From Paenibacillus oceani (lineage in GTDB: Bacteria > Bacillota > Bacilli > Paenibacillales > NBRC-103111), in NCBI RefSeq assembly GCF_014705615.1, contig NZ_JACXJA010000020.1, forward strand, positions 62,001 through 126,000: 64,000 bases of DNA, read 5' to 3'. Position numbers and translations under genes: made by a program. Each line of letters starts with the position of its first letter. Within the stretch, counting starts at the first letter, position 1. Below, piece after piece: positions 35,388 to 58,957 of the stretch. Below the pieces are notes generated by a model. That model worked only from the letters and a program-made list of their open reading frames with translations. It had not been told where the DNA came from and ran no database searches.

Positions 35388-38300
35388 GTGAAAGGTTTTC
35401 TGGGTACAGTTGCTGCCCTATCGGTGTTTTTGCTTAGTGTGGCGGCATTCCTTCCGGAGAAGGCTGAAGCGGCTTTGCAAAAAGTTACCTATCCATTCTC
35501 AGGCTTGACCTCCAATCCCGCCGATCCCAACTGGCGATTACTGGAGACCTATCCGTCCGACATGAGGATGGACGCGAATACGTTCCAGATGATCCGAAAC
35601 TCGGCGGTAGAACCGGCTAATGGCGAATTTATGAAAATTCGTTTCTATGTGCCCGAGGAGGGGCGTTACGATTTGCGGCTGACTCCTTATCGGTTTAACA
35701 TTCTGGGTGGTTATACGGATATATTAATTGACGGACAGCTGCTTGTTTCCGATTTCAGTTTTTATTCACCGACCGCGGTTATACCGGCTGAAGTCGTGTT
35801 AGCGGAGCAACTCTATTTGACCCAAGGGCATCATGTACTTGAATTCGCGGGCAAAAAGGGAGTGTTGTGGCCAACTTCCGGCACTTATCATTTGTACTTG
35901 TATTTGCGAAACTTCCAATTGGTGCCGCTGCCGGCGCTAGCCGATGTGCAGCTGTCTGCGGATGCCCAACAGATTATGGCGGGGCAGTATGTAAATGCGA
36001 ACGTAGCTGCCACGATGAATGACGGATCACCCGCCGATTTGCGGCAGGCATCGATTCAGTACGGCAGCGATAATCCGAATGTGCTGAGATTCGTGTCGGC
36101 CACGGGATTAATAGAAGCCGTCGCCCAAGGAACGGCTACTATGACGGCGACGGTATACTTGGACGGAGTGACGCGTACGGGCAGCAGGACGATTCAGGTC
36201 GAACCGTTCCATATGACGAGTGACAAGACGAGAAGCACGATCTATACGCCAGCGAAGGTAACCAATGCGAGGGCTAATGCGGCTTCGTATGATTGGGCGA
36301 GAAGTATAAGGGATACTGCGGTAGCCAAGGCGGACAATTATGTAGCGCTCGGATGGGAGTTTCTTTGGATCAGTGTTCCGCCACAGACGGTGCCGAGAAG
36401 TTATGCGGTCAATCAGCCGCTTGGCAGTCCGATTACCGGACTTGAAATCGACAAGTGGGGCAACTATCCGTACGTCGCCGATCCGGTAAACGAGCCTTGG
36501 AAGCTTACCGATCCGAGCAGCGGCTATAAGTTTCCGACGAACGACTTCGGCGCTTATTATGCCAGCGGGTTGGATGAACGGGGCATATTCCGGCCTGAAC
36601 TGGCAGATCGCAGCCTGCTTGTCAATGAATTGTACCCGGAGCGGGGGCCGACATGGGGTGTCGATGACGGGTACGGCTGGTATGACGAGAACGGGAATGC
36701 TTACACGTTTATCGCCTACTATACTCACTTTTATTTATGGTGGGGCAAGACGGGAATCGTTCAAGACGCGATAACGTCGCTGCGGGATGCTTACCTATAC
36801 ACAGGGGACAAACGGTATGCCCAGGCTGGAATCGTCCTGTTGGACCGGATCGCGGACGTCTATCCGTCACTGGATCTGAGCAAGTTCGACCGCAAAATAT
36901 TTTGGCATTCGGATATGAACAATGCTAAGGGGAAGGCGGTCGGCTCGATTTGGGAAACGGAGCTGGTCAAGCATTTCATTAGCGCTTACGACGCGTTTTT
37001 CCCGGCAATGGACGATATTACAGTGATGGACGACGTCATTGATTTTCTGTCGGCTAAAGGCCAGCAATACAAGCTTTCATTTAAAAATACGGTCACCGGC
37101 TTGCGTAAAAACGTAGAGGACGGCATCTTGAGGCAAGTGTATCCGGCGGTAAAAAATATGAGCATTTTCGGCAATACCGGGTTCCATCAAAGTGCGCTCG
37201 CTATGGCGGCCGTCGTTCACGATACGCTGCCGGAAACGAGAGAATGGCTCGATTTCAACTTCCGGACCGGTGAGGTTTTGCGAAATCCGCTTCGTTTGAC
37301 CGGCGGCAACATTCTGAACGGACTCGTCAATACCGTCGACCGTGACGGACACGGCAACGAAGGGGCCCCGAGTTATAATGCGGGCTGGCTGATGACGTAT
37401 CTGGAGGCGGCTGACATACTGCGCGGATACGATAAGTACCCGGAGGGCGACTTATACGAAAATGTGAAGTTCCGTAAAATGTTCGGTGCGATGCACGAAC
37501 TTATGATGTTGGACCGGTATACGCCATCGATCGGAGACTCGGCTTACACAGGCAATCCGCGTCTAATCTTGTACAAGGACCAGATGATCCGTGCGTTCGA
37601 AGTATACCGGGATCCGGTCTATGCGCAGCTGGCGTATTTCTTGAACGGTAATAAACTGTCCTCTGTGCACGGCGACATCTTCTCGGGCGATCCGGATGCG
37701 ATACGTGCAGATATTCAGGCTGTAATTGAGGAGTACGGTCCTTATGAAGCGGACAGCACGAACTTGTCCGGCACCGGCTTTGCTGCTCTGCGTGATGGTG
37801 TCCGCCAGTCGTCGCAGACGGGGAGCGGTATCCGTATGCTGTTTCCGGATCTTCAAGTAACCGTATCGAGCGCCGTATACCGTTATTTTGAAGCGTCATC
37901 CACCATTCAACTGGAAGCAAACGATCCGGGCCATTCGATCGCTTTCGCGTTTCCGATAGAGACCGGCGGGACTTATAGGGTCGATTTTCGCCCTTTCCGC
38001 GCGAATTCGTACGGAATATACGATGTGCGAATCAACAATGAGTGGGTAAAGCAAATCGATTTCTTCGGCTCCGATAAGGAGTTGGAGACGCTAGCCGAGA
38101 TGACGTTGCCTGCAGGAACTCACGTAATCTCCTTCCACAATGCCGGGAAATCTCCGTCCTCATCTAACTACAAGATGGGTGTGACCGAGCTTCGCTTGCT
38201 GGATACTTCCGAAGCGAACAACCCGCCCGATCAGGAAGCTGAGGATACGCAACGTGGGTTATGGATGTACTATGGCACAAGCCGGATACACGGACATAGT

Positions 38301-43597: not shown

Positions 43598-44632
43598 ATG
43601 AAAGAACGATTGCTCGCGCTGAAGACGGAGGCGCTGCAGGAGCTGGAGCGGGTGGAGAACGCCCAACAGCTGAATGACCTCAGAGTCAAATATTTGGGGA
43701 AAAAGGGTCCGCTTACGGAAATTTTGCGGGGCATGGGCGCGCTAAGCGCCGAGGAGCGTCCGGTTATCGGCCAAGTGGCCAACGAGGTGCGCGGCGCTAT
43801 CGAGGAAGTAATCGAAGCGAAGCAAGCCGAATATGCGCAGGCGGAAACGGCCAACCGCCTGAAGGCGGAGATGGTTGACGTGACGCTGCCGGGCCGTCGT
43901 ACTGCCCACGGTGCGGTTCACCCGCTTAACAAGGTGATCCAGGAGATCGAGGACATTTTTATCGGCATGGGTTATTCGGTAGCCGAAGGTCCGCAGGTGG
44001 AGAAGGACTACTACAACTTCGAGGCTCTGAATCTGCCGAAGGATCATCCGGCGCGCGATATGCAGGATTCGTTTTATATTACCGACGAGATTTTGATGCG
44101 CACGCAGACGTCCCCGGTACAGATTCGTACGATGGAGAAACGCCAGGGCGCGGTGCCGATCAAGATCATCAGCCCGGGTCAGGTATACCGCCGCGACGAC
44201 GACGATGCGACGCATTCGCATATGTTTACGCAGATCGAAGGGCTTGTGATCGACCGCCATATCCGGATGAGCGACCTGAAGGGTACGCTGCTCCAGTTCG
44301 TTCAGGAGATGTTCGGTCCGCAGACGCGCATTCGGATGCGTCCGAGCTTTTTCCCGTTCACCGAGCCGAGCGCCGAGGTCGACGTCTCCTGTATGATGTG
44401 CGGCGGCCAAGGCTGCCGGACGTGCAAGAAGACCGGCTGGCTGGAAATTCTCGGTTCCGGCATGGTGCACCCGCGGGTGCTCGAGATGTCCGGTTACGAT
44501 CCGAACGAATACAGCGGATTTGCTTTCGGCATGGGCGTTGAACGCATTGCGATGCTGAAGTATGGCGTGGACGATATCCGCCATTTCTATACGAACGATA
44601 TCCGGTTCCTGAAGCAGTTTGTGCACATTTAA
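43598..44632 (+). CDS. pheS: Phenylalanine-tRNA ligase alpha subunit
   Basis: Catalytic subunit of the (alpha beta)2 enzyme that charges tRNA-Phe. 344 residues, normal length: N-terminal coiled coil (about 1-85) for tRNA binding, then the class II core with motif 1 ([14 protein letters not shown]), motif 2 ([17 protein letters not shown]) and motif 3 ([17 protein letters not shown]). ATG 43598 follows AAGGAGGAG. First gene after the T-box leader and 30 bp upstream of pheT. Confidence 0.98.
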
Positions 44633-44662: not shown

Positions 44663-47107
44663 GTGAAAGTCTCTTATCAATGGTTGTCCGAATACGTCGA
44701 TCTGAAAGGGTATACCGCCTCGGAGCTGGCGGAGAAACTGACCCGCAGCGGGATCGAAGTCGATATCGTGGAAAATCGGAACAAAGGCGTCACGAATGTG
44801 GTCGTCGGTTACGTCAAAGCGCGGGAGAAGCATCCCGACGCCGACAAGCTGAGCGTATGCACGGTCGACGCCGGACAGGGCGAAGATTTGCAAATCGTCT
44901 GCGGAGCCAAAAACATAGCGGCCGGGCAAAAAGTTCCGGTAGCGCTCGTAGGCGCCGAGCTGCCTGGTGATCTGAAAATCAAAAGAGCCAAGCTGCGCGG
45001 CGTCGAATCGATGGGAATGATCTGTTCGGCCAAGGAGCTCGGCCTGAATGACAAGCTGCTGCCCAAAGAGCAGCAGGAAGGGATTCTCGTGCTGCCGGAA
45101 GATACGGCGGTCGGCAAGTCGATCCTGGAAGTGCTCGGACTCGATGACGAGGTGATGGAGCTGGATCTGACCCCGAACCGGTCCGACTGCCTGAGCATGA
45201 TCGGCGCCGCTTACGAGATTGCGGCGATCCTTGGCCGCAACGTCGAGCTGCCGAAGGATGAGATCGGTCTCCACCCGTCCCAGACGAAGGTGGCGGACCA
45301 TCTGAGCATCGGCATTACGGCGGCTGAGCTTTGCAGCCGGTATGCGGCTAGACGGATTACCCGGGTAAAGGTCGGGCCGTCCCCGCTATGGCTGCAAAAC
45401 AGGCTGATGGCTGCAGGCATTCGTCCGATCAACAATATCGTGGACATCACCAACTACGTGATGCTGGAGTACGGTCAGCCGCTTCACGCGTTCGACGCGG
45501 ATCTGCTGGAGGGCGGGCGCATCGATGTTCGTCTGGCCGGCGAAGGCGAGAAGCTCGTCACGCTGGATGACAACGAGCGGTCGCTGGAGCCGCACATGCT
45601 GCTGATTACGGACGGTGTGAAACCGATCGCGCTTGCCGGCGTTATGGGCGGCGCCAATTCGGAAGTGTCGCGGGATACGACGACGATCGTGCTGGAATCG
45701 GCCAAGTTCGCGGGCGCGACCGTCCGCAAGACGTCCCGCCAGCTCGGACTCCGTTCGGAAGCGTCGCTGCGCTTCGAGAAGGAATCGAATCCGGAGGCCG
45801 TCATTCCGGCGCTGAACCGTGCCGCGTCGCTGATCGCCGAGCTGACCGGAGGCGAAGTGAACGAAGGGATCGTCGAAGCTGTAACGAAGGAAGCTGAGCC
45901 CGTATCGGTGCGCATCACACTGGAGAAAATCAACCGTTACCTCGGCACGGAACTGGCGATGCTGGAAGTCAAAGTGATTTTGAACCGGCTTCATTTCAAT
46001 TTCGAGGAGCCGGGAGCCGGAGAACTGAACGTCCGCATTCCGATGCGCCGCGGAGATATTACGAGAGATGTCGATCTGATCGAGGAAATCGCCCGTTTGT
46101 ACGGGTATGACAACATTCCTTCGACTCCGATTATGGGCGCGACGACCCCGGGATCGCTAACCCGCGAGCAGTCGTTCCGCCGCGTCATTCGCCGCTTGCT
46201 GACCGAAAGCGGGCTGCACGAGGTTATTACGTATACGTTCACGCATCCGGAGCAGATCGCGAAGTATAGCGGCATGTATCCGGAAGCGAAGCCGATCGCG
46301 CTGTCGATGCCGATGAGCGAGGAGCGCAGCGTGCTTCGGACGAGTCTCGTGCCTCACCTGCTGGATACGGCGGTGTATAACCGGAACCGCAACGTGGACG
46401 ATGTATCGATCTACGAGCTGGGCAACGTGTTCGTCACGTCCGAAGGACAACTGACGACGCTGCCGCAGGAGAAGCTGATGCTGGCGGCGATCTGGACCGG
46501 CCGGCGCGCTCCGGCGCACTGGGGGCATAAAGGCGACAAGGTTGATTTCTATGATATGAAGGGCGTATTCGAGAAGCTGACCGATTACCTCGGGTTGGAG
46601 TCGGTCGGTTACAAGAGTGCCGCTCCGGAAGGATTCCACCCTGGGCGGACGGCCGAGATCACGATTGGTGAAGGGGCGGGAGCCCGCGTCATCGGACGGA
46701 TCGGACAGCTCCACCCGGAGCTGCAGCAGGCCAAAGATTTGGACGATACGTATGTGCTCGAGGTGGAAGTGGAGCCGCTGATGGAGCGTGCTGATTTCCG
46801 CATCGAATACAAGCCGTTGCCTAGAAATCCGGCGATCGGACGCGATATGGCGATCGTCGTAGATTCGGGCGTTGCAGTAGGCGATATCCGGCAAACCGTC
46901 GAAGCGGCGGCAGGCGCCTTGCTCGAATCGATCGACGTCTTCGATATTTATACGGGAGAGCGTCTCGGACAAGGGAAGAAAAGCGTGGCGTTCGCGCTTC
47001 TGTACCGTCATCCGGAGCGTACGCTGACCGATGAAGAGGTCGGAGAGCAGCACGGCAAAGTTGTAGCCGCTCTTGAACAAACATTCGGCGCAGAACTGCG
47101 CAAATAG
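44663..47107 (+). CDS. pheT: Phenylalanine-tRNA ligase beta subunit
   Basis: 814 residues. N-terminal EMAP/OB tRNA-binding domain (VVVGYVKAREKHPDADKL), B3/B4 editing region, B5 domain (about 405-480), catalytic-like core, and C-terminal ferredoxin-fold anticodon-binding domain (YKPLPRNPAIGRDMAIVV onward). GTG start 44663 with GGGAG at suitable spacing. Forms the heterotetramer with PheS and proofreads mischarged tRNA. Ends in a terminator before zapA. Confidence 0.98.
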   Translation: MKVSYQWLSEYVDLKGYTASELAEKLTRSGIEVDIVENRNKGVTNVVVGYVKAREKHPDADKLSVCTVDAGQGEDLQIVCGAKNIAAGQKVPVALVGAELPGDLKIKRAKLRGVESMGMICSAKELGLNDKLLPKEQQEGILVLPEDTAVGKSILEVLGLDDEVMELDLTPNRSDCLSMIGAAYEIAAILGRNVELPKDEIGLHPSQTKVADHLSIGITAAELCSRYAARRITRVKVGPSPLWLQNRLMAAGIRPINNIVDITNYVMLEYGQPLHAFDADLLEGGRIDVRLAGEGEKLVTLDDNERSLEPHMLLITDGVKPIALAGVMGGANSEVSRDTTTIVLESAKFAGATVRKTSRQLGLRSEASLRFEKESNPEAVIPALNRAASLIAELTGGEVNEGIVEAVTKEAEPVSVRITLEKINRYLGTELAMLEVKVILNRLHFNFEEPGAGELNVRIPMRRGDITRDVDLIEEIARLYGYDNIPSTPIMGATTPGSLTREQSFRRVIRRLLTESGLHEVITYTFTHPEQIAKYSGMYPEAKPIALSMPMSEERSVLRTSLVPHLLDTAVYNRNRNVDDVSIYELGNVFVTSEGQLTTLPQEKLMLAAIWTGRRAPAHWGHKGDKVDFYDMKGVFEKLTDYLGLESVGYKSAAPEGFHPGRTAEITIGEGAGARVIGRIGQLHPELQQAKDLDDTYVLEVEVEPLMERADFRIEYKPLPRNPAIGRDMAIVVDSGVAVGDIRQTVEAAAGALLESIDVFDIYTGERLGQGKKSVAFALLYRHPERTLTDEEVGEQHGKVVAALEQTFGAELRK

Positions 47108-47162: not shown

Positions 47163-47233
47163 TTTTCCGCCGCAACCCGTCAATTTTCGACATGATCCGT
47201 GAACCTGTATAGGTTGGAAAGGGTGTGCCTATT

Positions 47234-50200
47234 ATGAGTACGGGCGATAAAATTAGAGTCACGGTCGATATATACGGAACAGAATATAAATTGATGGGCA
47301 GCTCCAGCAGCGGTTATGTCAAGAAGGTTGCGTCTTATGTAGACGAGCAGATGCACAATACGGCCAAAGTGTTTCCGCGATTGGATACACCCCGGCTTGC
47401 CGTGCTTGCGGCTGTTAATATGGCGGACGATTTTTTTAAGCTAGAGTCGTCGCTGGAGCAGGTTCAGCAGCAGATGGAAGGACTTCGGGGAGCCGATCAG
47501 CGGTGCGCGGAGTTGGAAGAAGAGCTTCGCCTGCTGGAGCAGTCGTTTGAGCAGGAGACGAACAAGCTGCGGGAGCGCGAACGGGAGCTGGCGGCTGAAA
47601 TCGGTCAGCTACGCGGGCGTGCCGAACGAAGCGAGCGCGAGCTCGAGTCGGAGCGGCAGAGCAGACAGGCGGCTGAGCAGAAAGCGGCCGGGCGGATTGC
47701 GCAGCTTCAGGAAGAGAAGCAGCAGCTGGAGGAAACGTTCCAGCTGAAGCAGACGTTGATGAAGGAGCAGGAAGAGCAGTTGCTGACCCAGATCGTAGCC
47801 GAACAGGAAGCGCACAAGCAGTCGGTTCAGGAGTTGAATGCGAAGGCGAAGCAGGCGCTCGATGCAGAGCGTCAGCAAAGTCGGGGCCAGCTTGAGGAGG
47901 AGCAACGCAAAGCACGGAAGGCGCTGGAGGAAGAGCGCGCCAAGGCAGCGCAGAAGCTGGAGCAGACGCTTGCGGAAGAGCGGGGCAAGCGGGAGCAGGC
48001 GCTGGAGCAGCTGCGCCGTCAAGGCCAGCAGGCGATCGAACAGGAACGTCTTCAAGGTCAGCAGGGGCTTGAACAGGAGCGGCAGAAAGCAGCGCAGGCG
48101 CTCGAGGAGGAGCGCAAAAATTCGCAGCAAACGCTGGAGGAGCAGCGCGGCAAGTGGCAGCAGACGCTGAAGCAGGAGGGCGAGAAAGCGCAGCAGTTGC
48201 TCGAAGCGGAGCGCCGGAAGCTGGAGCAGGAGCGCAAGCAAGTGCTGGAGGCTATGGAGGCCGCACGCAAGCAGTTCGAGCAGGAGCGTCAACAGGTGCT
48301 GGAGGAACTGGAAGCGGAGCGGCTTAGCGCGGCGCAGTCGCTGGAGGAAGAACGGAGCAAGTGGCAGCAGCAGCTTGCGCAGGCAGACGAATTGTCGCTG
48401 CAAACGTTGGAAGCCGAACGTCAGAAGGCGGAGCAGGAGCGTCAAAAGGTGCTGGACGAGCTGGCGGCGGAACGGGAGAAAGCCGAACGCGAGCGTCAGA
48501 AGGCTGAGCAGACGCTGCAGGAGGAACGCGCGAAGCGTGAGCAGCAGGTAGCGGAGGAAGTGCGCAAAGGCGAGCAGGCGCTCGTCGAGGAGATGCTGCG
48601 CGCCGAGGAAGCGCTGGAGCAGGAGCGTTACCAGGCGGCACAGTCGCTGGAGGAAGAGCGGAGCAAGTGGCAGCAGCAGCTTGCGCAGGCGGACGAATTG
48701 TCGTTGCAGGCGCTGGAAGCGGAACGTCAGAAGGCGGAGCAGGCGCGTCAGCAGTTGCTTGAAGCGCTGGAGAACGAGCGCAAGCAGGCCGAGCAGCAGC
48801 GACAGCAAGCTTTGCAATCGCTGGAAGCGGAGCGGCTTCAGGCGGAACAGGAGAAGCAGCAACTGCTGAAAGCGCTGGAGAACGAGAAGCTTAAATCGAA
48901 GGACGAACGTCAGCAAGCGTTGCAGACGCTGGAAGCGGAGCGTCGGAAATTTGCGAAGGAACGCCAACAGGCCGAGCAATTGCTGGAAGCCGAGCGCCAG
49001 AAGCGGGAGCAGCAACGTTTGCAGGCGGAGCAGGCACTGAAGGAAGAGTTGACGAAGCGTGAGCAGCTGGTGTCGGAGGAAGTGCGCAAGGGCGAGCAAG
49101 CGTTAGTCGAAGAGATGGTTCGTGCCGAGGAGGCGCTGGAGCAGGAACGGGTGAAGGCGAAGCAGGCGCTGGAGGAAGAGCGGAGCAAACGCCAGCAGGC
49201 TTTGCAGGCGCTGGAGGCGGAAAGCCTGAAGGCGGAGCAGGAGCGTCAAAAGTTCGAACAGGAGCGCCAACAGGCCGAACAATTGCTGGAAGCCGAGCGC
49301 CAGAAGCGAGAGCAGCAGCGTTTGCAGGCGGAGCAGGCACTGAAAGAAGAGCTGGCGAAGCGGGAGCGTCAGAAGGCGGAGGAAGTGCGCAAGGTCGAAG
49401 AGGCGCTGGAGGACGAAATGGTTCGCGCCGAAGAAGCGCTGGAGCAGGAGCGGCTGAAAGCGCAGCAGGCGCTTGCGGAAGAGCAGGGTAAATGGCAGCA
49501 GCTGCTAGCGCAGGAACGTCAGCAGGCCGAGCAGGCTCTACAGGAAGAACGGAGCAAGGGACAGCGGCTCCTGGAGGAAGAGCGTCGTAAAAGTGAGCAA
49601 ATTCTTGTTGAAGAGATTATGAAAGCCGAACAGACGCTGGAAGAGGCGCTGCATAAAGGGAAACAGTCGCTGGAGCAGCAGTGGAGCGACAAGGAGCGGA
49701 CGCTGCTGGAACGTATCGGCCAACTCGAACAGGTATACGAGGAAGAGCGGCGCAAAGCGAGCGAGGAACTGGAGCAAGCGCGTCTTCAAGCACAACGGGC
49801 GGTTGAACAGGAACGGCAGACTGCGGCAGCCTTTGCGGAGCAGGAGCGCCTGAAGATCCACGAAGCGCTGGAGGAAGAGCGTCTTCAAGGCATGCTCGCT
49901 CTGGAAGAGGAGCAGTTGAAAGCCGCTAAGGCTTTGGAGGAAGAACGTGCTAAAGCGGTTCAGGCTCTCGAAGCGGAGCGTCGTAAGGCGATGCAGGCCG
50001 AAGAAGAGCGCAAGAAGGCGGTACAGGCGCTTGCGGAAGAGCTGCGTAAAGCGAAGCAGGCACTTGCGGAAGAGCGTTCGATTCTTGAAGAAATGCTGGC
50101 AGAGGAACGTTCCAGAGCGAAGCAGGCTTTGGATGACGAACAGGACAGAGTCGGGCGGATTGCCGAGCAAGCGCGCGCTGAATTCGAACAAACGCTGAAG

Positions 50201-50758
50201 GAACAGCAAAGGAAGTTCGAACAGGCGCTTGCGGAAGAGCGGGCGAGAAGCGAATCGCTGCTGGCGGATGAACTTGCGAAAGCCAGACGAGCTCTCGAGG
50301 AAGAGCGCAGCAAGGCTAGAATGGCTCTCGAAGAAGAGCGCAGCAAGGCCAAGCAAGCGCTGGAAGAGGAGCAACTGGTCGGGGAAATCGCCCTGGAGGA
50401 AGAGCGGGATGCCGCGCAGCGCAAAATCGTTTCGTTGGAGGCAGAGCTGTCCGGACTGCGTTCCCGGCTTGAGGTTGCGGCGACTAGCGTGCGGGATGAG
50501 CTGACGGCGGAGCGTGAACGGGCTGCCAAGCTGGAACAGACGCTCCAGAATGAACGAGCGGAGTTCGAGGCGGAGCGGGACGATATGCGGCTTTCATTCG
50601 GCCGGGAGTGCGGCAGGCTGAAGCACGAGCTGGAGCAGCTGCAAGATGAACGGCTGAAGGATAGCGAGCTGGTGGTGCAGCATCGCAAACTCCAGGAGGA
50701 ATACGCGAAGCTGCAAAACGAATTCAACGAATGGATTCAACTCGTTGAGAAGGATTAG
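47234..50758 (+). CDS. zapA: Giant ZapA-like cell division protein with about 1090-residue coiled coil
   Basis: 1174 residues. Residues 1-85 are a normal ZapA domain (DKIRVTVDIYGTEYKLMGSS, YVKKVASYVDEQM, RLAVLAAVNMADDFFKLE); ZapA binds FtsZ and bundles its filaments at the septum and is usually about 85-200 residues. From about 86 to 1170 the protein is almost pure Glu/Gln/Lys/Arg/Ala/Leu coiled coil with no Pro and little Gly. It is written in 11-residue units such as LEQERQKAAQA, LEEERKNSQQT and LEEQRGKWQQT (33-nt period, 48068-48232). Blocks of 303 and 306 bp are tandemly duplicated. ATG 47234 follows AAAGG; the in-frame GTG nine bases before lies too close to that site. It occupies the usual zapA locus (pheST-zapA-cvpA). 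It could act as a long spacer or lattice linker at the division site. Minus-strand frames within it are artefacts of codon bias. Confidence 0.88.
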   Translation: MSTGDKIRVTVDIYGTEYKLMGSSSSGYVKKVASYVDEQMHNTAKVFPRLDTPRLAVLAAVNMADDFFKLESSLEQVQQQMEGLRGADQRCAELEEELRLLEQSFEQETNKLRERERELAAEIGQLRGRAERSERELESERQSRQAAEQKAAGRIAQLQEEKQQLEETFQLKQTLMKEQEEQLLTQIVAEQEAHKQSVQELNAKAKQALDAERQQSRGQLEEEQRKARKALEEERAKAAQKLEQTLAEERGKREQALEQLRRQGQQAIEQERLQGQQGLEQERQKAAQALEEERKNSQQTLEEQRGKWQQTLKQEGEKAQQLLEAERRKLEQERKQVLEAMEAARKQFEQERQQVLEELEAERLSAAQSLEEERSKWQQQLAQADELSLQTLEAERQKAEQERQKVLDELAAEREKAERERQKAEQTLQEERAKREQQVAEEVRKGEQALVEEMLRAEEALEQERYQAAQSLEEERSKWQQQLAQADELSLQALEAERQKAEQARQQLLEALENERKQAEQQRQQALQSLEAERLQAEQEKQQLLKALENEKLKSKDERQQALQTLEAERRKFAKERQQAEQLLEAERQKREQQRLQAEQALKEELTKREQLVSEEVRKGEQALVEEMVRAEEALEQERVKAKQALEEERSKRQQALQALEAESLKAEQERQKFEQERQQAEQLLEAERQKREQQRLQAEQALKEELAKRERQKAEEVRKVEEALEDEMVRAEEALEQERLKAQQALAEEQGKWQQLLAQERQQAEQALQEERSKGQRLLEEERRKSEQILVEEIMKAEQTLEEALHKGKQSLEQQWSDKERTLLERIGQLEQVYEEERRKASEELEQARLQAQRAVEQERQTAAAFAEQERLKIHEALEEERLQGMLALEEEQLKAAKALEEERAKAVQALEAERRKAMQAEEERKKAVQALAEELRKAKQALAEERSILEEMLAEERSRAKQALDDEQDRVGRIAEQARAEFEQTLKEQQRKFEQALAEERARSESLLADELAKARRALEEERSKARMALEEERSKAKQALEEEQLVGEIALEEERDAAQRKIVSLEAELSGLRSRLEVAATSVRDELTAERERAAKLEQTLQNERAEFEAERDDMRLSFGRECGRLKHELEQLQDERLKDSELVVQHRKLQEEYAKLQNEFNEWIQLVEKD
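48329..48940 (+). repeat. Tandem duplication, 306-bp offset, inside zapA
   Basis: The segment encoding AAQSLEEERSKWQQQLAQAD (48329 onward) recurs at 48635, 306 bp (102 codons) later, with the first 35 or so residues nearly identical and later divergence. Confidence 0.8.
48959..49564 (+). repeat. Tandem duplication, 303-bp unit, inside zapA
   Basis: Two adjacent 101-codon copies (48959-49261 and 49262-49564), both starting ERQQAEQLLEAERQKREQQR and both containing EEVRK and MVRAEEALEQER at the same offset. Differences are scattered substitutions without frameshift. Confidence 0.85.
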
Positions 50759-50776: not shown

Positions 50777-51346
50777 ATGAGTATGAATGAACTCAATACG
50801 CTGGACATTATCGCCGCCGTGCTGATAGTCGGGGCTCTTGCTCTTGGCTACCACCGCGGCTTGATCGCCCAGCTCGTTTCCATCGTCGGCCTGTTCATCG
50901 CCTATTTGGCGGCTTACTGGCTGTACGATGACTTGGCCCCGATCGTAGGACGGTTTATTCCGCTTGACAAGCTTAAGGGTTATCAAGAGTACGCGTTTCT
51001 GCTCGACAGTATCAATTGGAACGTCTACTTTAACAATGCCGTTGCTTTTGCGGTCATTTTTATAGTTGTCAAAATCGGATTTACGATCGTCGGGCGAGTG
51101 CTACACTGGATCGCTTCGATCCCGGGCCTCAAGAAGGTGAACAAATGGAGCGGCGCCCTGCTGGCCTTGTTCGAGGTAGTAGTGCTGTTTACGATCGCGG
51201 TGCTTATCATGAGCATCATCCCTTCGGACTCGCTGCAAAAGACTTTGTCGGAGTCCAGCGCCGCCACTTTCGTTATGGACCGGCTGCCCGAGCTTGCAGA
51301 CCGGCTGCGGGAGTTGTGGAATCAAATTCCGGTGGATAGCGTCTAG
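50777..51346 (+). CDS. CvpA family membrane protein
   Basis: 189 residues, four predicted helices, beginning with NTLDIIAAVLIVGALALGY and containing RGLIAQLVSIVGLFIAYLAA, the CvpA/colicin V production family pattern (YshB-like in Bacilli). Family members are linked to cell envelope and division in several bacteria. ATG 50777 is 18 bp after the zapA stop, so it is translated from the same message. In Bacillus this gene is followed by polX and mutS2; here repeats and an IS-bearing segment follow. Confidence 0.9.
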   Translation: MSMNELNTLDIIAAVLIVGALALGYHRGLIAQLVSIVGLFIAYLAAYWLYDDLAPIVGRFIPLDKLKGYQEYAFLLDSINWNVYFNNAVAFAVIFIVVKIGFTIVGRVLHWIASIPGLKKVNKWSGALLALFEVVVLFTIAVLIMSIIPSDSLQKTLSESSAATFVMDRLPELADRLRELWNQIPVDSV

Positions 51347-51732: not shown

Positions 51733-52434
51733 TCAGCCTCCAGCGGCGAGCGGTAAGCCGCCGACTTCGAACAGCTTGCCGTTCGGCCCATGTTTGGGCA
51801 ACGAGGCCAGCGCTAGTATATCCGGCACCACGGCCGCCGGTTCTTGGCCGGTCGCGTGCATTTCCGTGCGGATTGTACCGGGGTTGTACATATTGGTCAA
51901 GATGCCGTGCGTGATTTCTTCTTCCGCGATCGTGCGGGTCAGCGTTTCGAGTCCGGCCTTGCTAACACTGTACGCGACGTAGCCGCCCGCTCCGTTCTCG
52001 GCGAGGCTGGAGGTGATATTTACGATCCGCCCGTATTTGCGTTCGCGCATAAGGGGGAGGCATGCTTTGGTCATCAGGAATGCACCGGTTAAGTTAACGG
52101 ATATTTGGTAGTTCCACGAATCCAACGAAGTATCAGCTACCGAGCCGAGTTCGACTACAGCAGCGTTATTGATTAACAAGTCGATGCGGCTGTAAGCGGT
52201 CCGGACAAATTCCTGCATGCGAAGAACGTCGCACTCTGAAGCGATGTCCAGGCGAAGCGCCTGAGACCGGCCTCCGGCGGATGCGATCAGACGGGCCGTC
52301 TCTTCAAGTCTGCCGAGCCTCCGCCCGCACAAGATAACGATAGCCCCTTCCTCCGCAAATCGTAAAGCGGTTGCCCTTCCCAATCCGGAACCTGCGCCAG
52401 TCACAACTGCAACTTTCTCAGACAGTATTCCCAT
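51733..52434 (-). CDS. SDR family oxidoreductase
   Basis: 233-residue classical short-chain dehydrogenase: TGAGSGLG cofactor motif, CGRRLGRLEE (Arg pair after beta-2 suggests NADP), NNAAV, catalytic SSLAENGAGGYVAYSVSK (Y and K four apart) and YNPGTIRTEM. ATG 52434 with AGAGGTGG upstream. Alone, oriented opposite to the mutS2-cvpA direction, in the accessory segment. Substrate not recognisable. Confidence 0.9.
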   Translation of the reverse strand: MGILSEKVAVVTGAGSGLGRATALRFAEEGAIVILCGRRLGRLEETARLIASAGGRSQALRLDIASECDVLRMQEFVRTAYSRIDLLINNAAVVELGSVADTSLDSWNYQISVNLTGAFLMTKACLPLMRERKYGRIVNITSSLAENGAGGYVAYSVSKAGLETLTRTIAEEEITHGILTNMYNPGTIRTEMHATGQEPAAVVPDILALASLPKHGPNGKLFEVGGLPLAAGG

Positions 52435-52559
52435 AATACCCACCTCTTTACTTTGTCTTTATCAAAATCATCTTAACAGAAATTTCCGGGTCCAGATAGA
52501 CGTTTACGGTATAAAAATTTTTGATGAAAATGGAAACAATTGTTTAATAAAGGATCGTG

Positions 52560-53460
52560 GGATGAAGGCCGTCCACAGGGAGAAAATCAACTAAAAGTAT
52601 GAGTGGGGACAGAGCGGGTGGTAAATGGGCTGCCCAAAAGCAAACGGAGAGGAAGTAAAGGGAAAGGGGAGGAGCTTGAGGGACGAAGAAAAAGCCGAAG
52701 GAACACAATAAAGAGCCGCAGGAGCAGGATATAGGGTCGAGGGGCGAAATAAAGGTCGAAGGAACGACGAGCAATAAAGTCGAAAAAAGAGAGATAAGAA
52801 ATCGAAGGAACGAGATAAAAGTCGAATGAAGCGAGATCAGAAAAGTCGGAGGAACGGGGCAAAAGTCGAAGGAAAGGAGTTAATCAGTCGAGTGAAGTTA
52901 GTTGAAAAGTCGAAGGAAAGGAGATAAACAGTCGAATGAACAACCTGGGTAAGTCAAAAGAACGAGACAAGAAAGACGAAAGATAAGGAGGAACGAGGTA
53001 AGAAATTGCAGGAATGAGCTGAAAAGTTGAAATAGTCGAGATAATGAGCCGTCGAAGGAATGAGGTGAAAAGTCGAAGGAATGAGGTAAAAAGTCGAAGG
53101 AGAGAGGTGCGAAGTCGAAGTCGAAGGAACAAGAAGAATATTCGAAGAAATGTGACAAAAAAGACGAAAGATAAGAAGAAAAGAGACAAGAAAGACGAAA
53201 GATAAGAAGGAACGAGGCAAGAAATTGCAGGAATGAGCTGAAAAGTTGAAAGAGTCGAGATGATGAGCCGTCGAAGGAACGAGGTAAAAAGTCGAAGGAA
53301 TGAGGTAAAAAGTCGAAGAGGGTGAGATAACAAGTCGAAGGGTGCGAGCTAAGAAAAGCCGAAGGGAAGAGATGAGAGTTGAAGAATCGCGATAAGAAAA
53401 GTCGAAGAAACGAGACAAGAAGTCGAAAAAGTGAGGGAGGAATTCAAAGAAAGTGAAATG
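52560..53460 (+). repeat. Purine-rich degenerate repeat tract, 21-bp period
   Basis: About 900 bp that is overwhelmingly A and G on the plus strand, with roughly two dozen GTCGA or close variants spaced mostly 21 bp apart (for example 53051, 53072, 53093, 53114; 53270, 53291, 53312, 53333). The unit resembles AAGTCGAAGGAATGAGGTAA. A 137-bp block (52964-53100) recurs with few changes at 53183-53319. Long minus-strand frames open in all three phases reflect strand composition, so I do not call genes here. Confidence 0.85.
53453..53460. repeat. Left target-site duplication of the IS element
   Basis: GTGAAATG directly before the IS; the same 8 bp follow the right end at 54945-54952. Confidence 0.85.
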
Positions 53461-53462
53461 GA

Positions 53463-53493
53463 GACTGTCAAGTAAAAAGTGTAACCTCTGAAA
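53463..53493 (+). repeat. IS left inverted repeat
   Basis: Pairs imperfectly with 54912-54942; conserved CTGT, GTG, AACCT and TGAAA blocks. Confidence 0.75.
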
Positions 53494-53517
53494 ACAATAT
53501 CTAGCTACTAGTGAGCC

Positions 53518-53637
53518 GCGACTTGACCTGGAGCCTCTGGCGGGCCCGGTGCACGCGCGATGGGCGAAGGGGGCCTTAGGGCCGTTCTCGCGCCGGGCGG
53601 ACAGCCTACCAGACCCGCCCCCTCCACCTCAAGTCGC
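53518..53637. repeat. GC-rich stem inside the IS element
   Basis: GCGACTTGA (53518-53526) and TCAAGTCGC (53629-53637) are perfect reverse complements enclosing a very GC-rich 100-bp stretch with further pairing (GGGCCCGG and CCGGGC). It lies just after the transposase stop. Confidence 0.5.
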
Positions 53638-53638
53638 T

Positions 53639-54856
53639 TTAGCGGACCTGAACGCGGTCTGGGTAACAGACAGTCAATTGCAGCAGGATTTGTCCCCAGT
53701 TCTGCACGCGTCCCGTCCATTTGCGCACGACGTCCATGGTGGCCAGATACAGCATTTTCAGCAGCGACTCGTCATGGGGAAAAATGCTCTTTCCTTTTGT
53801 CACCTTGCGTAATTGCCTATGATAGCCCTCGATCATATTCGTCGTATAGATCAGTTTGCGCAGCTCCGGCGGGTACATGAAAAATGTGGAAAGCTCGTCC
53901 CAATTCTGGCGCCAGGACTTCACGATTAAGGGGTACTTTTCTCCCCAGGTTTCTTCAAATCGATCCAGCTCCAGCAAGGCACTTTCCTCGGTTGCGGCTT
54001 TGTAAATGGGTTTCAGGTCGGCTGTGACGCGTTTGAGGTCCTTGTAGGCCACATAGCGGACCGAGTTGCGGATCTGGTGAACGATGCACTTCTGAATATC
54101 CGTTTTCGGGTAGCAAGCCGAGATCGCTTGGCTGAAGCCCGTCAAGTTGTCCACACAGACCAGCAGAATGTCCTGAACGCCACGGTTCTTCAGATCGTTT
54201 AACACGCTCATCCAGAACTTCGCCGACTCGTTCTCGCCGATCCAGATGCCGAGCACATCTTTGTTGCCGTCCAAATCGACCCCGATCACCATGTAGGCGG
54301 CTTTGTTCACAATCGCTCCATCCTGTTTCACTTTGAAATGAATGGCGTCGAGAAACACGACTGCATACGTCGGTTGTAGCGGGCGGTTATGCCATTCTTT
54401 AATCATGGGTATAATTTTATTGGTGACGTTGGAAATGAGCGTTGGGGATACTTCAATGCCATACAGCCCCTGCAAATGGTCCTGGATATCCCGGGTGCTA
54501 ACGCCTTTGGCATATAGGGCGGTAATCTGATCCTCGATGCCGGTGACGTTCGTTTGATTTTTCTTGATCACAACCGGCTCAAATTCACCCAGACGATCGC
54601 GCGGCACTTTGATTGCAAGATCGCCGTATTCGGTGTGAACCGTTTTTTCCCGATAGCCGTTCCGACTGTTCTTCGTCTCTTTGTTATGGTCGTAGGGGGC
54701 GTAGTCCAGTTGGGTATCCAGTTCCGCCTTCAGGGTGGCCTCCAGTACATCCTTGAACATCTCCTTTAAGGTCGCCTGGATCTGCTCCACCGACTGGAAT
54801 TGATGTTCCTTCACGAGTTCCTGTATCGCTTGTTTGCTCCAAAATTTCTCTGTCAT
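53639..54856 (-). CDS. IS256-family transposase
   Basis: 405-residue DDE transposase of the IS256/Mutator family, full length. N-terminal helical DNA-binding part (FWSKQAIQELVKEHQF), SRNGYREKTVHTEYGDLAI, first Asp in AVVFLDAIHFKVK, second Asp in VDNLTGF, and Glu in TNMIEGYHRQLRK. Conserved C/H segment CIVHQIRNSVRYV. ATG 54856 follows GGAGGG. No frameshift, so the element is probably active. Confidence 0.96.
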   Translation of the reverse strand: MTEKFWSKQAIQELVKEHQFQSVEQIQATLKEMFKDVLEATLKAELDTQLDYAPYDHNKETKNSRNGYREKTVHTEYGDLAIKVPRDRLGEFEPVVIKKNQTNVTGIEDQITALYAKGVSTRDIQDHLQGLYGIEVSPTLISNVTNKIIPMIKEWHNRPLQPTYAVVFLDAIHFKVKQDGAIVNKAAYMVIGVDLDGNKDVLGIWIGENESAKFWMSVLNDLKNRGVQDILLVCVDNLTGFSQAISACYPKTDIQKCIVHQIRNSVRYVAYKDLKRVTADLKPIYKAATEESALLELDRFEETWGEKYPLIVKSWRQNWDELSTFFMYPPELRKLIYTTNMIEGYHRQLRKVTKGKSIFPHDESLLKMLYLATMDVVRKWTGRVQNWGQILLQLTVCYPDRVQVR

Positions 54857-54911
54857 TTGGTTTTCCCTCCGAAATGGTCTGTTAGAACATAGTATGTCCC
54901 GTTTTGATTCA

Positions 54912-54942
54912 TTTCAAAGGTTCCACCTTTCATTTTACAGAC
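54912..54942 (-). repeat. IS right inverted repeat
   Basis: Reverse complement reads GTCTGTAAAATGAAAGGTGG; about 24 of 31 positions match the left repeat. Confidence 0.75.
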
Positions 54943-54944
54943 CC

Positions 54945-54952
54945 GTGAAATG
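54945..54952. repeat. Right target-site duplication of the IS element
   Basis: GTGAAATG, identical to 53453-53460. Confidence 0.85.
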
Positions 54953-55195
54953 AGAAAATCAGATGAAAGAACTTATTTCCTAAGAAACTCAGGGCAAACA
55001 AAACTAACGCCAAGAAGAAGGAAGATACCTATTAGACAAGTTCAAGTTTACCTTACACTTTGTATGACTCCCTTACTGACTTTCGCACTTTCTCCCTTTC
55101 ACCCTTTCTGACTTTCTCCCTTTCTCACTCTCTCGCTTTCACATTTTAATACTTTAACACTTTTAATACACATAACCACGACAACGTACAATAAC
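54953..55195. other. Intergenic region with pyrimidine-rich repeats
   Basis: 243 bp. 55080-55140 holds short repeats of the type ACTTTCTCCCTTTC. No gene seen. This looks like a continuation of the strand-biased low-complexity DNA interrupted by the IS, but with the opposite strand purine-rich. Confidence 0.5.
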
Positions 55196-55228
55196 AAAAA
55201 AACCTCCAAAACCTGACGGAATTGGAGG
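55196..55228 (-). terminator. Terminator of the CuA-type lipoprotein gene
   Basis: On the minus strand CCTCCAA pairs with TTGGAGG (7 bp) and is followed by seven T residues. Confidence 0.85.
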
Positions 55229-55273
55229 GTGTGGTACCACAAGCAGTAATGCGTCGCTTGCAGCGGTTATAAA

Positions 55274-55642
55274 TTATTCTACAATCAGCTTAGCTTTCAT
55301 AGTGCTGTGGCCGGTCCCGCAAGGCAAGCTGCAGATGATGTCGTAAGTACCTGCTTTGTCGAACGTAACGTCTTTCGATTTGTTGGTGCCTACGTCGATA
55401 TTCAAGCCGTTGATTTTGATGGCATGTGCGCCTTCTTTGCTTTCCAGCGTCACTTTCAGTGTGTCGCCTTTTTTCACTTTGTATTCTTTTTGGTCGAAGT
55501 CCCAGTTGGTTGCTACTATTTTCAAGTCGCCGGTAGCCGGTCCGGAAGCGGTGTTAACAGGCGCTTCTTCTTTTTTGCCGCAGGCGGCTACCACTGCCAG
55601 CACGGCGATCAGCGCGAGCAGGTACAAGATCGTTTTCTTCAT
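55274..55642 (-). CDS. Cupredoxin lipoprotein with CuA-type copper site
   Basis: 122 residues. Lipobox VVAAC with Cys21, then a cupredoxin fold ending in CSLPCGTGHSTM. C104, C108, H112 and M115, with H73 in GAHAIKING, match the ligand pattern C-x3-C-x3-H-x2-M of the CuA centre in cytochrome c oxidase subunit II. There is no transmembrane hairpin, so this is a free lipid-anchored CuA-like domain on the outer membrane face. It could be an electron carrier, a copper chaperone or a partner of a reductase encoded elsewhere. ATG 55642 follows GGAGGG. No oxidase genes are near. Confidence 0.88.
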   Translation of the reverse strand: MKKTILYLLALIAVLAVVAACGKKEEAPVNTASGPATGDLKIVATNWDFDQKEYKVKKGDTLKVTLESKEGAHAIKINGLNIDVGTNKSKDVTFDKAGTYDIICSLPCGTGHSTMKAKLIVE

Positions 55643-55790
55643 ACGGAATCCCTCCATAAGTGTAGTCCATCGGACTGTTGATCTTACGAGCTTCATTATA
55701 TCGAAATGGCGGGATAAAGTCAGTGACAGTCTCGTGAACCCTTAATGAAAAAGTTATGAACCTTTTTGTAAGTCTGGCTAAACCGCTTGC

Positions 55791-55814
55791 AAAAAAGCGG
55801 GAATTCGTTCCCGC
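55791..55814 (-). terminator. Terminator (distal) of the holin-like gene
   Basis: GCGGGAA and TTCCCGC around a 4-nt loop, followed on the minus strand by TTTTTT. Confidence 0.8.
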
Positions 55815-55909
55815 CTGCTTCCGGCATGAGCTGTTTGGAGTCCAATTCAGGGGGTCAGCCGTCTGTGTAACGTCCATCGCCTGAATCAAAAAGCCGCGCG
55901 CCGCGTATG

Positions 55910-55934
55910 CCAAAAGCCTGCCCGACGGGCAGGC
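55910..55934 (-). terminator. Terminator (proximal) of the holin-like gene
   Basis: Perfect 8-bp GCCTGCCC/GGGCAGGC with 3-nt loop, followed on the minus strand by TTTTGG, 20 bp after the gene's stop. Confidence 0.75.
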
Positions 55935-55954
55935 CGTTAGCACAGCGAAGCAGG

Positions 55955-56323
55955 TTAACGGGCTTCTTCCCGGTTGCCCTGTCCCGCATCGAACGGTGTT
56001 GCGATGGGGATGAACAGGTCGATGATCCCGATAACCAGCGCCGCCAAAATAGCACCGACAATCGTTACAGATACGCCGCCTACGACGAACTGGGCTAGCC
56101 AGATGACGGCTGCGCTCGCCAGAAAACCGACGATACCCCGGCCGAACGGTGTAATCCGCTTGCCGAAAATTCCTTCCACGATCCAACCCAATACCGCGAT
56201 GACTAAGGCGAGGAACAAAGCGCTCCAGAAGCCCCCTACGGCAAAATTCGGTACGATCCAGCCAACGAACATAAGCACGAAGGCCGCAACGATAAATCGG
56301 ACAACATGGCCAAGAAATCGCAT
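55955..56323 (-). CDS. Phage holin family-like membrane protein (four helices)
   Basis: 122 residues with four hydrophobic helices: FLGHVVRFIVAAFVLMFVGW, FWSALFLALVIAVLGWIVEG, GIVGFLASAAVIWLAQFVVG, and IVGAILAALVIGIIDLFIP. It matches the YvlD/four-TMS 'phage holin' family that is widespread on Bacillales chromosomes without phages, so a lytic role is doubtful; envelope stress is more likely. ATG 56323 with AAAGGAGG eight bases upstream. Two terminators follow. Confidence 0.82.
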   Translation of the reverse strand: MRFLGHVVRFIVAAFVLMFVGWIVPNFAVGGFWSALFLALVIAVLGWIVEGIFGKRITPFGRGIVGFLASAAVIWLAQFVVGGVSVTIVGAILAALVIGIIDLFIPIATPFDAGQGNREEAR

Positions 56324-56587
56324 GTACGCTTCCTCCTTTGGAATGGTTCGCATAAACGGCTCGAAGGCAGCTTGTATGGCAGCTGCATCCGTCCGAATGG
56401 CGGCGATATCGGTGCACCCTTTATTTTTGCCCTATCTTGTCGAGCTATGTAGTCCAATTATTGGCGGCGACCGATTGCGTCCGGTGGATAAAATAGGTCT
56501 AACCGTTCGTTCAATAGCTAATCCGGAACGCTTCGGATATAATAACTAACATACAGGTTTCGCGGATGGGAAGGAGTTTGAACGGTT

Positions 56588-58957
56588 TTGAACCCGAAAG
56601 TACTGCATACGCTTGAATATTATAAAATTCGTACGAAATTGGCGGATCACGCCGCTACCTCGCTTGGCAAATCGCGCGCCGAGTCGGTCGAACCGAGCTC
56701 GGACTTCGAAGAAGTCAAGAGGCTGCTGAAGGCGACGGACGAAGCCGTCAAAGTAGACCGGCTAAAAGGGGGCGCTCCGTTCGGCGGAATCCGGGACGTA
56801 CGGGCGGCTCTGCATCGGGCCCGGATCGGCGGGACGTTAAATCCGGCCGAGCTGCTGGACATCGCGAACACGATCGCCGGAGGCCGGAAGTTGAAACGCT
56901 TTTTGCAAACGATGGACGAGCATGAGCCGATCCCTTCTCTCGTAGAGGCGGCGGAACCGGTTAGTGAGAACCGGGCCGTCGAGGAGAAAATCAAATCGTG
57001 CATCGACGATCAGGCGGATGTTCTGGACAGCGCCAGTCCAGAGCTGTCCCGAATCCGCAGCGAGCTGCGCACGAGCGAATCGCGCGCCAGAGAAAAGCTC
57101 GAGCAGATGATCCGGACGCCATCCATTCAGAAGATGCTCCAGGACGCTTTGATCACGATGCGCGGGGACCGTTACGTCATTCCGGTCAAGCAGGAATACC
57201 GCGGCAGCTTCAGCGGCGGGATGATCCACGATCAGTCCGCGTCGGGCGCTACGCTGTTTATCGAGCCTGAGGCGGTAGTGACTTTGAATAACAAGCTGCG
57301 CGAGCTGAAGCTGAAGGAAGAGCGCGAGATCGAGAAAATATTGATCATGCTGACCGGCTTCGTCGCTGAAGCGGCGGACGAACTGACAGTATCGGTCGAG
57401 GCACTGGGCGAGCTTGATTTCGTATTTGCCAAGGCGGGGCTGGCCCGGGAATTAAAGGCGACGCTGCCGGTGATGAACGACCGGGGCTTTCTCAAGCTCA
57501 AAAAAGGGCGTCACCCGCTGTTATCCCCCGATCACGTCGTGCCGCTGGACGTGGAGCTCGGCAACCAGTTCGCCTCGATCATCGTCACCGGCCCCAACAC
57601 AGGGGGCAAGACGGTTTCTTTGAAGACGATCGGTCTGCTCAGCCTGATGGCGATGACCGGCATGTTCATTCCAGCTCAGGACGGCAGCCAGATGTGCGTC
57701 TTCGACGCGATCTACGCCGATATCGGCGACGAGCAGAGCATCGAGCAAAGCCTGAGTACATTTTCCAGTCATATGACCAATATTATATCCATTCTGAAAG
57801 GAATGACGCCGAAAAGTCTCGTTCTGCTCGATGAGCTCGGAGCGGGGACCGATCCGTCGGAAGGTTCGGCGCTGGCGATCGCCCTTCTCGAATATATTCA
57901 CCGGATCGGCTGCCGGGTCGTGGCGACGACGCACTACAGCGAGCTGAAGGCGTACGCCTTCGAGCGCAAAGGCGTCATTAACGCGAGCATGGAGTTCGAC
58001 GTGCAGACGCTCAGTCCAACGTACCGGCTGCTCGTGGGCGTTCCAGGCCGAAGCAACGCCTTCGCGATTGCGGAACGGCTCGGACTGCCCCGCCCGATTC
58101 TCGAGATGGCACGCGGACATGTCGACGAGGACGATCGCCGGGTGGAGACGATGATCGCTTCGCTCGAAGCGAACCGGGCTACGACCGAAGCCGAGCGAAG
58201 CAAGGCCGAGCAGATGCGCGCCGAGGTCGAGCGTCTACGTAACCAGCTGGAGGATGAGCGGGAGAAGTTCCGCGAACAGCGCGATAAGCTGATGGCCAGA
58301 GCCGAGGAAGAAGCGCGAGGCGCGGTAGCCAAGGCGCGCAGCGAGGCCGAGGAAGTAATCCGCGAGCTGCGGCGGCTTGCGCTGGAGGAACGCGGCGCGG
58401 TCAAGGAGCACAAGCTGATCGACGCCAAGCGGCGTCTCGACCAGGCGGTGCCGGAGCTGAGAGATAAGCGCGCCGTGCCGAAAGCGGCTAAGAAACGTGC
58501 GGAGACGATCGGCATCGGCGACGAAGTGCGGGTCGTATCGCTTGGCCAGAAAGGTCACGTCGTCGACATGCACGGCGAGACGGAAGCGACCGTACAGCTC
58601 GGCATTTTGAAAATGAAGGTGAACAAGTCGGATCTGGAGCTGATCAAGCCGGCGCAGGATGCAAAGCCGGTGCAGCAGGTAACGGCAAGCGTCAAGCGAA
58701 GCCGGGACGAGAATATCCGGACCGAGCTCGATTTGCGCGGCAGCAATCTGGAGGAAGCAATGATCGAGACCGACCGGTTTCTGGACGAAAGCTTCCTGAA
58801 CGGATTCGGCCAAGTGTATATCATTCACGGCAAAGGCACCGGTGTTCTGCGCACCGGACTTCAGGAATATTTCCGCAGGCACAAGCACGTCAAAAGCTAC
58901 CGGCTGGGCAATTACGGCGAAGGCGGAGCGGGCGTTACAGTAGTCGAGTTGAAATAA
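56588..58957 (+). CDS. mutS2: Endonuclease MutS2
   Basis: 789 residues, standard length. N-terminal helical core, ABC-type ATPase with Walker A GPNTGGKT (about 333-340) and Walker B LVLLDELGAGTDP, helical coiled coil (about 510-620; EAERSKAEQMRAEVERL), KOW-like segment and C-terminal Smr nuclease domain (ELDLRGSNLEEAM; YIIHGKGTGVLR; NYGEGGAGVTVVEL). Known members suppress homologous recombination and resolve collided ribosomes. TTG start 56588 has GGAAGGAG upstream. In relatives it follows cvpA and polX; polX is not present here. Ends in a strong terminator. Confidence 0.96.
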   Translation: MNPKVLHTLEYYKIRTKLADHAATSLGKSRAESVEPSSDFEEVKRLLKATDEAVKVDRLKGGAPFGGIRDVRAALHRARIGGTLNPAELLDIANTIAGGRKLKRFLQTMDEHEPIPSLVEAAEPVSENRAVEEKIKSCIDDQADVLDSASPELSRIRSELRTSESRAREKLEQMIRTPSIQKMLQDALITMRGDRYVIPVKQEYRGSFSGGMIHDQSASGATLFIEPEAVVTLNNKLRELKLKEEREIEKILIMLTGFVAEAADELTVSVEALGELDFVFAKAGLARELKATLPVMNDRGFLKLKKGRHPLLSPDHVVPLDVELGNQFASIIVTGPNTGGKTVSLKTIGLLSLMAMTGMFIPAQDGSQMCVFDAIYADIGDEQSIEQSLSTFSSHMTNIISILKGMTPKSLVLLDELGAGTDPSEGSALAIALLEYIHRIGCRVVATTHYSELKAYAFERKGVINASMEFDVQTLSPTYRLLVGVPGRSNAFAIAERLGLPRPILEMARGHVDEDDRRVETMIASLEANRATTEAERSKAEQMRAEVERLRNQLEDEREKFREQRDKLMARAEEEARGAVAKARSEAEEVIRELRRLALEERGAVKEHKLIDAKRRLDQAVPELRDKRAVPKAAKKRAETIGIGDEVRVVSLGQKGHVVDMHGETEATVQLGILKMKVNKSDLELIKPAQDAKPVQQVTASVKRSRDENIRTELDLRGSNLEEAMIETDRFLDESFLNGFGQVYIIHGKGTGVLRTGLQEYFRRHKHVKSYRLGNYGEGGAGVTVVELK

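Follow-up and report, generated by a model that had tools for sequence, protein, structure and literature searches.

Described ZapA proteins from Bacillus, Escherichia, Pseudomonas and Klebsiella (PF05164; structures 2MMV and 1T3U/1W2E) have in common with the protein examined here a head domain, a single gene copy at a pheT–zapA–cvpA locus and a helix C-terminal to the head; in the canonical protein, whose complex with FtsZ has been studied by cryo-EM, the C-terminal helices hold the tetramer together as a dumbbell, both ends of which carry FtsZ-binding heads (PMC12216130). Coiled-coil partners can be joined to this unit: ZapB in enteric bacteria and ZauP in Caulobacter are separate proteins that associate with ZapA and extend or organise the Z-ring (PMC4388696, PMC7188993). 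In E. coli, distinct layers of ZapA, ZapB and MatP join the ring to the chromosome, with ZapB lying 37–48 nm inside FtsZ and MatP about 30 nm further (PMC4388696), and both ZapB and MatP are described as confined to enteric bacteria (PMC7188993). In Gram-positive bacteria, EzrA is another long helical protein associated with the Z-ring; this regulator from Bacilli is anchored in the membrane, has a transmembrane helix at its N-terminus and contains spectrin-like repeats (PMC8687745). Here we examine a zapA gene at positions 47234–50758 of a 64,000-nucleotide stretch of the Paenibacillus oceani genome (contig NZ_JACXJA010000020.1, positions 62,001 to 126,000; hereafter the window), which encodes a ZapA head followed by a very long helical tail and a conserved C-terminal tip.

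By domain, locus and copy number this gene is a ZapA, and it departs from the family in architecture. Ordinary ZapAs have roughly 80–200 residues and a short C-terminal coiled coil; the window protein has 1174, a departure of architecture and not of homology, with a post-head helix of about 1090 residues as against 81–197 residues for the whole proteins listed outside the order. It also adds a tip motif that is absent from other Bacilli. The closest solved extended relative is 3HNW, a ZapA-like coiled-coil protein of 138 residues (E=5.6e-5), in which a ZapA-like head is likewise followed by a coiled coil longer than that of ordinary ZapA; its tail, however, is about one twentieth as long as that of the window protein, and the match is confined to query residues 10–119. 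The parts of the gene are as follows.

47234–50758, plus strand: zapA, rod-tailed form, 1174 amino acids (ATG at 47234, stop at 50758; alternative in-frame GTG at 47225)
47234–47488, plus strand: ZapA head domain, residues 1–85 (Pfam match 9–82), predicted by homology to bind FtsZ
47489–50683, plus strand: rod spacer of about 1060 residues, a proline-free, charged, predicted amphipathic helix with 11- and 18-residue units and internal segment duplications
48415–48676, 48937–49198 and 49240–49501 (span 48415–49501), plus strand: 262-nt segment present in three copies in the tail, 72–83% identical to the reference copy
50684–50755, plus strand: distal tip RKLQEEYAKLQNEFNEWIQLVEKD at the C-terminus, an order-specific motif present in 75 of 75 complete ZapAs of the order

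The original prediction, made from the letters of the window, had described about 85 residues of normal ZapA, and this description stands: when residues 1–89 were scanned, residues 9–82 matched Pfam ZapA (PF05164) at 68.1 bits against a cut-off of 23.8 (E=8.7e-19). The closest solved ZapA is 2MMV, matched over residues 4–81 (E=4e-16), and across the order the head segment starting from 'LAVLAAVNMADE' carries 3.15 bits per column. The full-length protein, by comparison, has no Pfam match and reaches 79.4 of the 80 bits required by NCBIfam. Of ten full-length ZapAs scanned from the order, all ten fell under the NCBIfam equivalog cut-off and three under that of Pfam; such misses of standard annotation cut-offs are probably why the group has been overlooked so far.

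The tail was predicted to be some 1090 residues of nearly uninterrupted coiled coil. A proline-free, phase-coherent helix is indeed what the sequence suggests, although as a mosaic of 11- and 18-residue units instead of a uniform heptad coil, and the last 25 or so residues form a separate conserved motif that had been missed. Residues 86–1143 contain no proline among 1058 positions, with about 60% Glu, Gln, Arg, Lys and Asp, about 27% Ala plus Leu and about 19% large hydrophobic residues. Hydrophobic residues follow a single period of 3.635 residues, at a spectral power of 34.5 where 500 shuffles reached no more than 10.6, and every 150-residue sub-window shows it again, between 3.58 and 3.68. 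Autocorrelation of the tail sequence is highest at lags of 11, 22 and 33 residues, followed by 18, repeat spacings of 33 bp and 54 bp appear in the DNA, and segments of 262 and 200 nt are each present in three copies. The tail thus reads as a helical stripe that runs almost straight and is made up of 11-residue (three-turn) and 18-residue (five-turn) units.

Pairs of Glu or Asp at position i with Lys or Arg at i+3 occur 118 times against 48 expected, so that local stabilisation of the kind seen in single alpha-helices (SAHs) is likely. An SAH or ER-K rod, in which a charged helix lacks a hydrophobic stripe, was nevertheless ruled out as the main description by the strong coherent stripe seen here; this stripe and the hydrophobic content fit a coiled coil better than a charged helix on its own. 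With modest confidence, AlphaFold2, run with a three-sequence alignment, predicted a beta-hairpin and helix in the head and then more than 90% helix to the last residue. The earlier figure of about 160 nm for the reach of the tail holds as arithmetic (0.1485 nm per residue), which is valid only if the helix is continuous; on the model, a continuous rod of this length is plausible but unproven.

The second end of the protein is as conserved as the first. The motif L..EY.KLQ.E(Y/F)NEWI.L(V/I) closes all 75 complete ZapAs of the order, from 138 to 1883 residues, with the EYNEW core beginning 9–23 residues before the C-terminus; even the shortest member, with a spacer of about 20 residues, retains it. 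Numbering the Glu of EYNEW as 0, L-10, L-3, E0, E3 and W4 are invariant in 75 of 75. Y-6 and N2 occur in 73 of these proteins, E-7 and K-4 in 70, L7 in 69 and I5 in 67, while position 1 is Tyr in 57, Phe in 16 and His in two. The core was located by a pattern requiring an E-W pair, which every complete protein contained, so the invariance of E3 and W4 is partly by construction; the other columns are unaffected. Column information is 3.16 bits in the tip, which matches the head, and stays at a background of 1.1–1.25 bits along the tail, whether measured next to the head or next to the tip: conservation is confined to the two ends.

Within the host genome the tip occurs in ZapA only, which rules out a shared C-terminal signal. 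A 27-column tip profile searched against 300 genomes of the class gave one match in each of the 28 genomes from the order (E from 1e-8 to 1e-13), and none that was convincing in the 272 outside it, where two marginal matches had E of about 0.009. In heptad register the tip, which reads as a short coiled coil rich in aromatic residues, places Tyr, Tyr, Tyr/Phe and Val at a and Leu, Leu, Leu and Trp at d, with a ladder of Glu at g (E-14, E-7, E0) and Gln, Lys or Arg at e, a pattern that suits a parallel two-stranded coil. Residues off this core are conserved as well, at b, c, e and g (K-4, N2, E3, I5 and L7); a plain coiled coil would not need them, which suggests an interface beyond the two strands. 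With the tip, the protein can be described as a spacer with two functional ends, a much more specific proposition than a long rod.

Although the size of the window protein is real, the picture of one oversized ZapA gives way to a character of the whole order, here taken as Paenibacillales. Comparison of the locus across relatives, which the original prediction had proposed, returned single ZapAs, most of them long, in every genus sampled of the family and order. The nearest named relatives of the window's genome are Paenibacillus flagellatus and P. mesophilus, which we take to be members of Paenibacillales. In the window's own genus (five genomes) the ZapA frames measure 1181, 511 and 1583 residues, and two more are cut by contig ends. 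The GTDB family carries exactly one ZapA in 103 of 105 genomes, in all 71 of good quality and in 22 of 22 genera, with a median frame of 814 residues (quartiles 556 and 1141), 36 frames above 1000 and a maximum of 1892. In the order, sampled through 300 genomes from 12 families, 293 genomes have one ZapA, and each of the 49 genera covered carries one. Among the matches listed, families f1, f2 and f11 have mostly long ZapAs, and other small families of the order mostly 160–425 residues, with one of 699.

Outside the order, 150 ZapAs of the class among the matches listed have 81–196 residues, and a further 48 from elsewhere in the phylum have 89–197; since these figures describe the matches listed, a rare long ZapA may occur in the class outside the order. 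Sequences were translated for 80 loci of the order plus the window, of which 75 were complete after six exclusions: L062, L063, L092, L118 and L138 run off contigs, and L079 is apparently frameshifted relative to its sister L080. Tail lengths in this complete set span a roughly 34-fold range. The open-licence literature, to which the search was limited (subscription papers lay outside it), yielded no description of a long ZapA and no study of a Paenibacillus ZapA. The rod-tailed ZapA with its conserved tip is a new variant of ZapA. As a separate observation, four genomes of one genus in family f27 of the class (G350, G400, G502 and G542) have an in-frame TAA within the ZapA match, possibly a frameshift, a pseudogene or a match overrunning the stop.

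We propose, as the probable reading of this anatomy, that the sole ZapA has been remodelled into a long-reach tether or crosslinker of the Z-ring, with an FtsZ-binding head, a rod spacer whose length is tuned by lineage and a distal docking tip. The ordinary head (about 85 N-terminal residues) would bind FtsZ filaments, as homology suggests, and the tails would pair in parallel into a two-stranded rod, as expected from the geometry of the ZapA dimer and the hydrophobic stripe. Judging from length, the rod would hold the tip at a distance set in each lineage, about 8 nm in the shortest and about 267 nm in the longest. The tip, given its conservation, would dock either on a fixed partner (a divisome, nucleoid or membrane protein) or on another ZapA rod. 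Each lineage would set its rod length by adding or losing helical repeat units, with selection maintaining helicity. The spacer or linker role suggested at the outset is consistent with this anatomy, and any of the options then named (filament spacing, a link to membrane or nucleoid, a scaffold) may apply. In a single chain the protein would perhaps combine the work of ZapA with that of ZapB or ZauP, a likeness of function without membership of either family, in which the coil is a covalent part of ZapA and not a separate small protein.

Several observations weigh against this proposal. The 34-fold range of tail lengths is hard to square with a single fixed bridging distance, and the AlphaFold2 model has a modest mean predicted local distance difference test (pLDDT) score of 63 and a few helix breaks. 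The tip could be a mere coiled-coil end cap or a tetramerisation element. Insertions and deletions between close relatives often correspond to whole helical turns (11, 7, 119 and 147 residues), but one of 79 residues does not fit, so the rule that all of them keep helical phase is not strictly upheld.

How the tail evolves bears on whether its length matters at all. Neutral or selfish growth, in which a slippage-prone, low-complexity repeat expands by unequal crossing-over, is tolerated because helicity is preserved and performs no function that depends on its length, would account for the units of 33 bp and 54 bp and the duplicated segments within the tail, for the wide range of lengths and for assemblies that break within the tail at 5 of 80 loci. 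Yet in pairs of close relatives belonging to other genera of this order, the window's own protein not being among them, the ratio of nonsynonymous to synonymous substitution rates (dN/dS) of the tail is 0.07–0.21, with no substitution to or from proline; these tails are under purifying selection, to judge from their substitutions. Prolines are nearly absent across the order (23 in 53,931 residues of 75 tails, 59 of which have none). Length is also stable in the short term: pairs with at least 95% head identity differ by a median of 0.01 log2 units in tail length, even at a synonymous divergence (dS) of about 0.3 in the tail, and the difference reaches about 1 log2 unit in pairs below 55% head identity. 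Moreover, every complete protein retains the distal tip beyond its tail, and comparable growth is seen in no listed ZapA outside the order, all of which makes neutral growth improbable in our view. The hydrophobic period is the classical heptad 3.50 in some tails and 3.64 in others, including that of the window, so the helical rod character is conserved and the detailed geometry is not; the pattern is the one expected of a spacer under selection, and not of a junk repeat or a binding surface. A misassembly, or a fusion of zapA to an unrelated coiled-coil gene, might be suspected from the repetitive tail DNA and the draft state of the genome (94 contigs), but long in-frame ZapAs lie at the same locus in more than 100 independent genomes, some of them complete single contigs, and we regard this explanation as already refuted in substance and its probability as negligible.

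Two further explanations concern what the rod connects. The tip may be a relocated tetramerisation site through which parallel dimers are joined tip-to-tip, or antiparallel along the rod, with heads at both ends, so that the rod spaces FtsZ filaments and does the ordinary job of ZapA over a longer distance. Assembly through the C-terminus is ancestral, as in the canonical tetramer (PMC12216130), conservation at b, c, e and g would fit a four-helix bundle, and the shortest members, at 138–178 residues, are near ordinary ZapA size. In a full antiparallel rod, however, the tip would pack on the partner's head-proximal helix, and that helix is at background conservation; the Glu ladder at g with Gln, Lys or Arg at e favours parallel over antiparallel packing of tips; and the implied filament spacings of 160–320 nm would exceed the scale of the Z-ring. 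We consider self-association of this kind unlikely. Slightly better placed, though still doubtful, is a special case of the linker proposal, in which the rod replaces missing coiled-coil Z-ring factors, EzrA or a ZapB-like layer, in one polypeptide linking the ring inward to the nucleoid or outward to the membrane. A Pfam EzrA (PF06160) search of the host genome gave no match, and the window's family has only weak ones (at most 73 bits), compared with 230–670 bits for matches listed in most other Bacilli, and across the genomes of the order that were searched EzrA is likewise weak or absent; a single 160-nm rod could also span the distance from FtsZ through ZapB to MatP in E. coli (PMC4388696). 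Yet several other families of Bacilli (f28, f41 and f47 among them) have no strong EzrA match and keep short ZapAs, so simple replacement of EzrA is insufficient to explain the tail. EzrA was accordingly set aside as the specific thing replaced. The window protein begins with a soluble ZapA domain and no transmembrane segment is evident in its sequence, and Pfam scans of the ten full-length ZapAs from the order gave no ZapB match.

The families of Bacilli without a strong EzrA match, besides this order, suggest loss or strong divergence of EzrA over a wider clade. Weak matches in proteins of about 820–910 residues recur across the window's family and could be misread as EzrA. The best of them, at locus L037 (1150–3834, minus strand, genome G015), is an 894-residue protein above the Pfam EzrA cut-off (73 bits) whose N-terminus resembles a TPM phosphatase and whose C-terminal portion is helical; assigned by eye, without a profile search, it looks like a TPM-phosphatase-domain protein.

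Turning to the surroundings of the gene, the window retains the ancestral pheST–zapA–cvpA–mutS2 neighbourhood, represented by the following genes.

43598–44632, plus strand: pheS (TIGR00468)
44663–47107, plus strand: pheT, upstream neighbour of zapA (TIGR00472, E=6e-267)
50777–51346, plus strand: cvpA, the next gene downstream (PF02674, E=1.6e-27), starting 18 nt past the zapA stop
56588–58957, plus strand: mutS2, the end of the ancestral neighbourhood

The spacing of 18 nt between zapA and cvpA agrees with that first reported, and the synteny from pheS to cvpA together with a single ZapA per genome bears out the assignment of the gene as the zapA orthologue and not a second copy. Either an interrupted reading frame or a separate zapA elsewhere had been named as grounds for abandoning the prediction: the frame is intact (1181 residues in the host-genome search, with no internal stop), and the host genome (8,047,219 bases, 99.9% complete), when searched, yielded one ZapA only, at 47234–50758. 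The exact repeat number and tail length in this draft are uncertain, as repeats may have been collapsed. Downstream of zapA, cvpA is recognisable at 43 of the loci examined. In the window, the usual order is broken between cvpA and mutS2 by genes at 51733–56417 on the minus strand, within which lie a short-chain dehydrogenase (51733–52443) and a Mutator/IS256-type transposase (53639–54856; PF00872, E=1e-119). Elsewhere in the window, 35388–39989 on the plus strand encodes a 1533-residue protein that has a heparinase II/III-like domain and, at its C-terminus, a FIMAH domain, as well as a weak match to a bacterial Ig-like domain.

The proposal of a long-reach linker has a bolder form, in which ZapA would have become, throughout the order, a ruler or physical tether for the ring, with an FtsZ-binding end and an order-specific docking end that stay fixed and a rod that evolution retunes over the whole span of lengths. 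It would connect the Z-ring to one specific partner, for instance at the nucleoid terminus or in the septal machinery, and do the work that ZapB- or EzrA-type proteins do elsewhere. This we put forward tentatively, as a possibility that falls somewhat short of an even chance. The family offers a natural length series, in which one orthologue with constant ends carries a spacer of about 20 to about 1780 residues across hundreds of species, and it bears on two questions: how far apart filaments are held by Z-ring crosslinkers, and whether the Z-ring has a physical tie to the nucleoid outside enteric bacteria. The conserved tip could be used directly as bait to find a missing partner in division.

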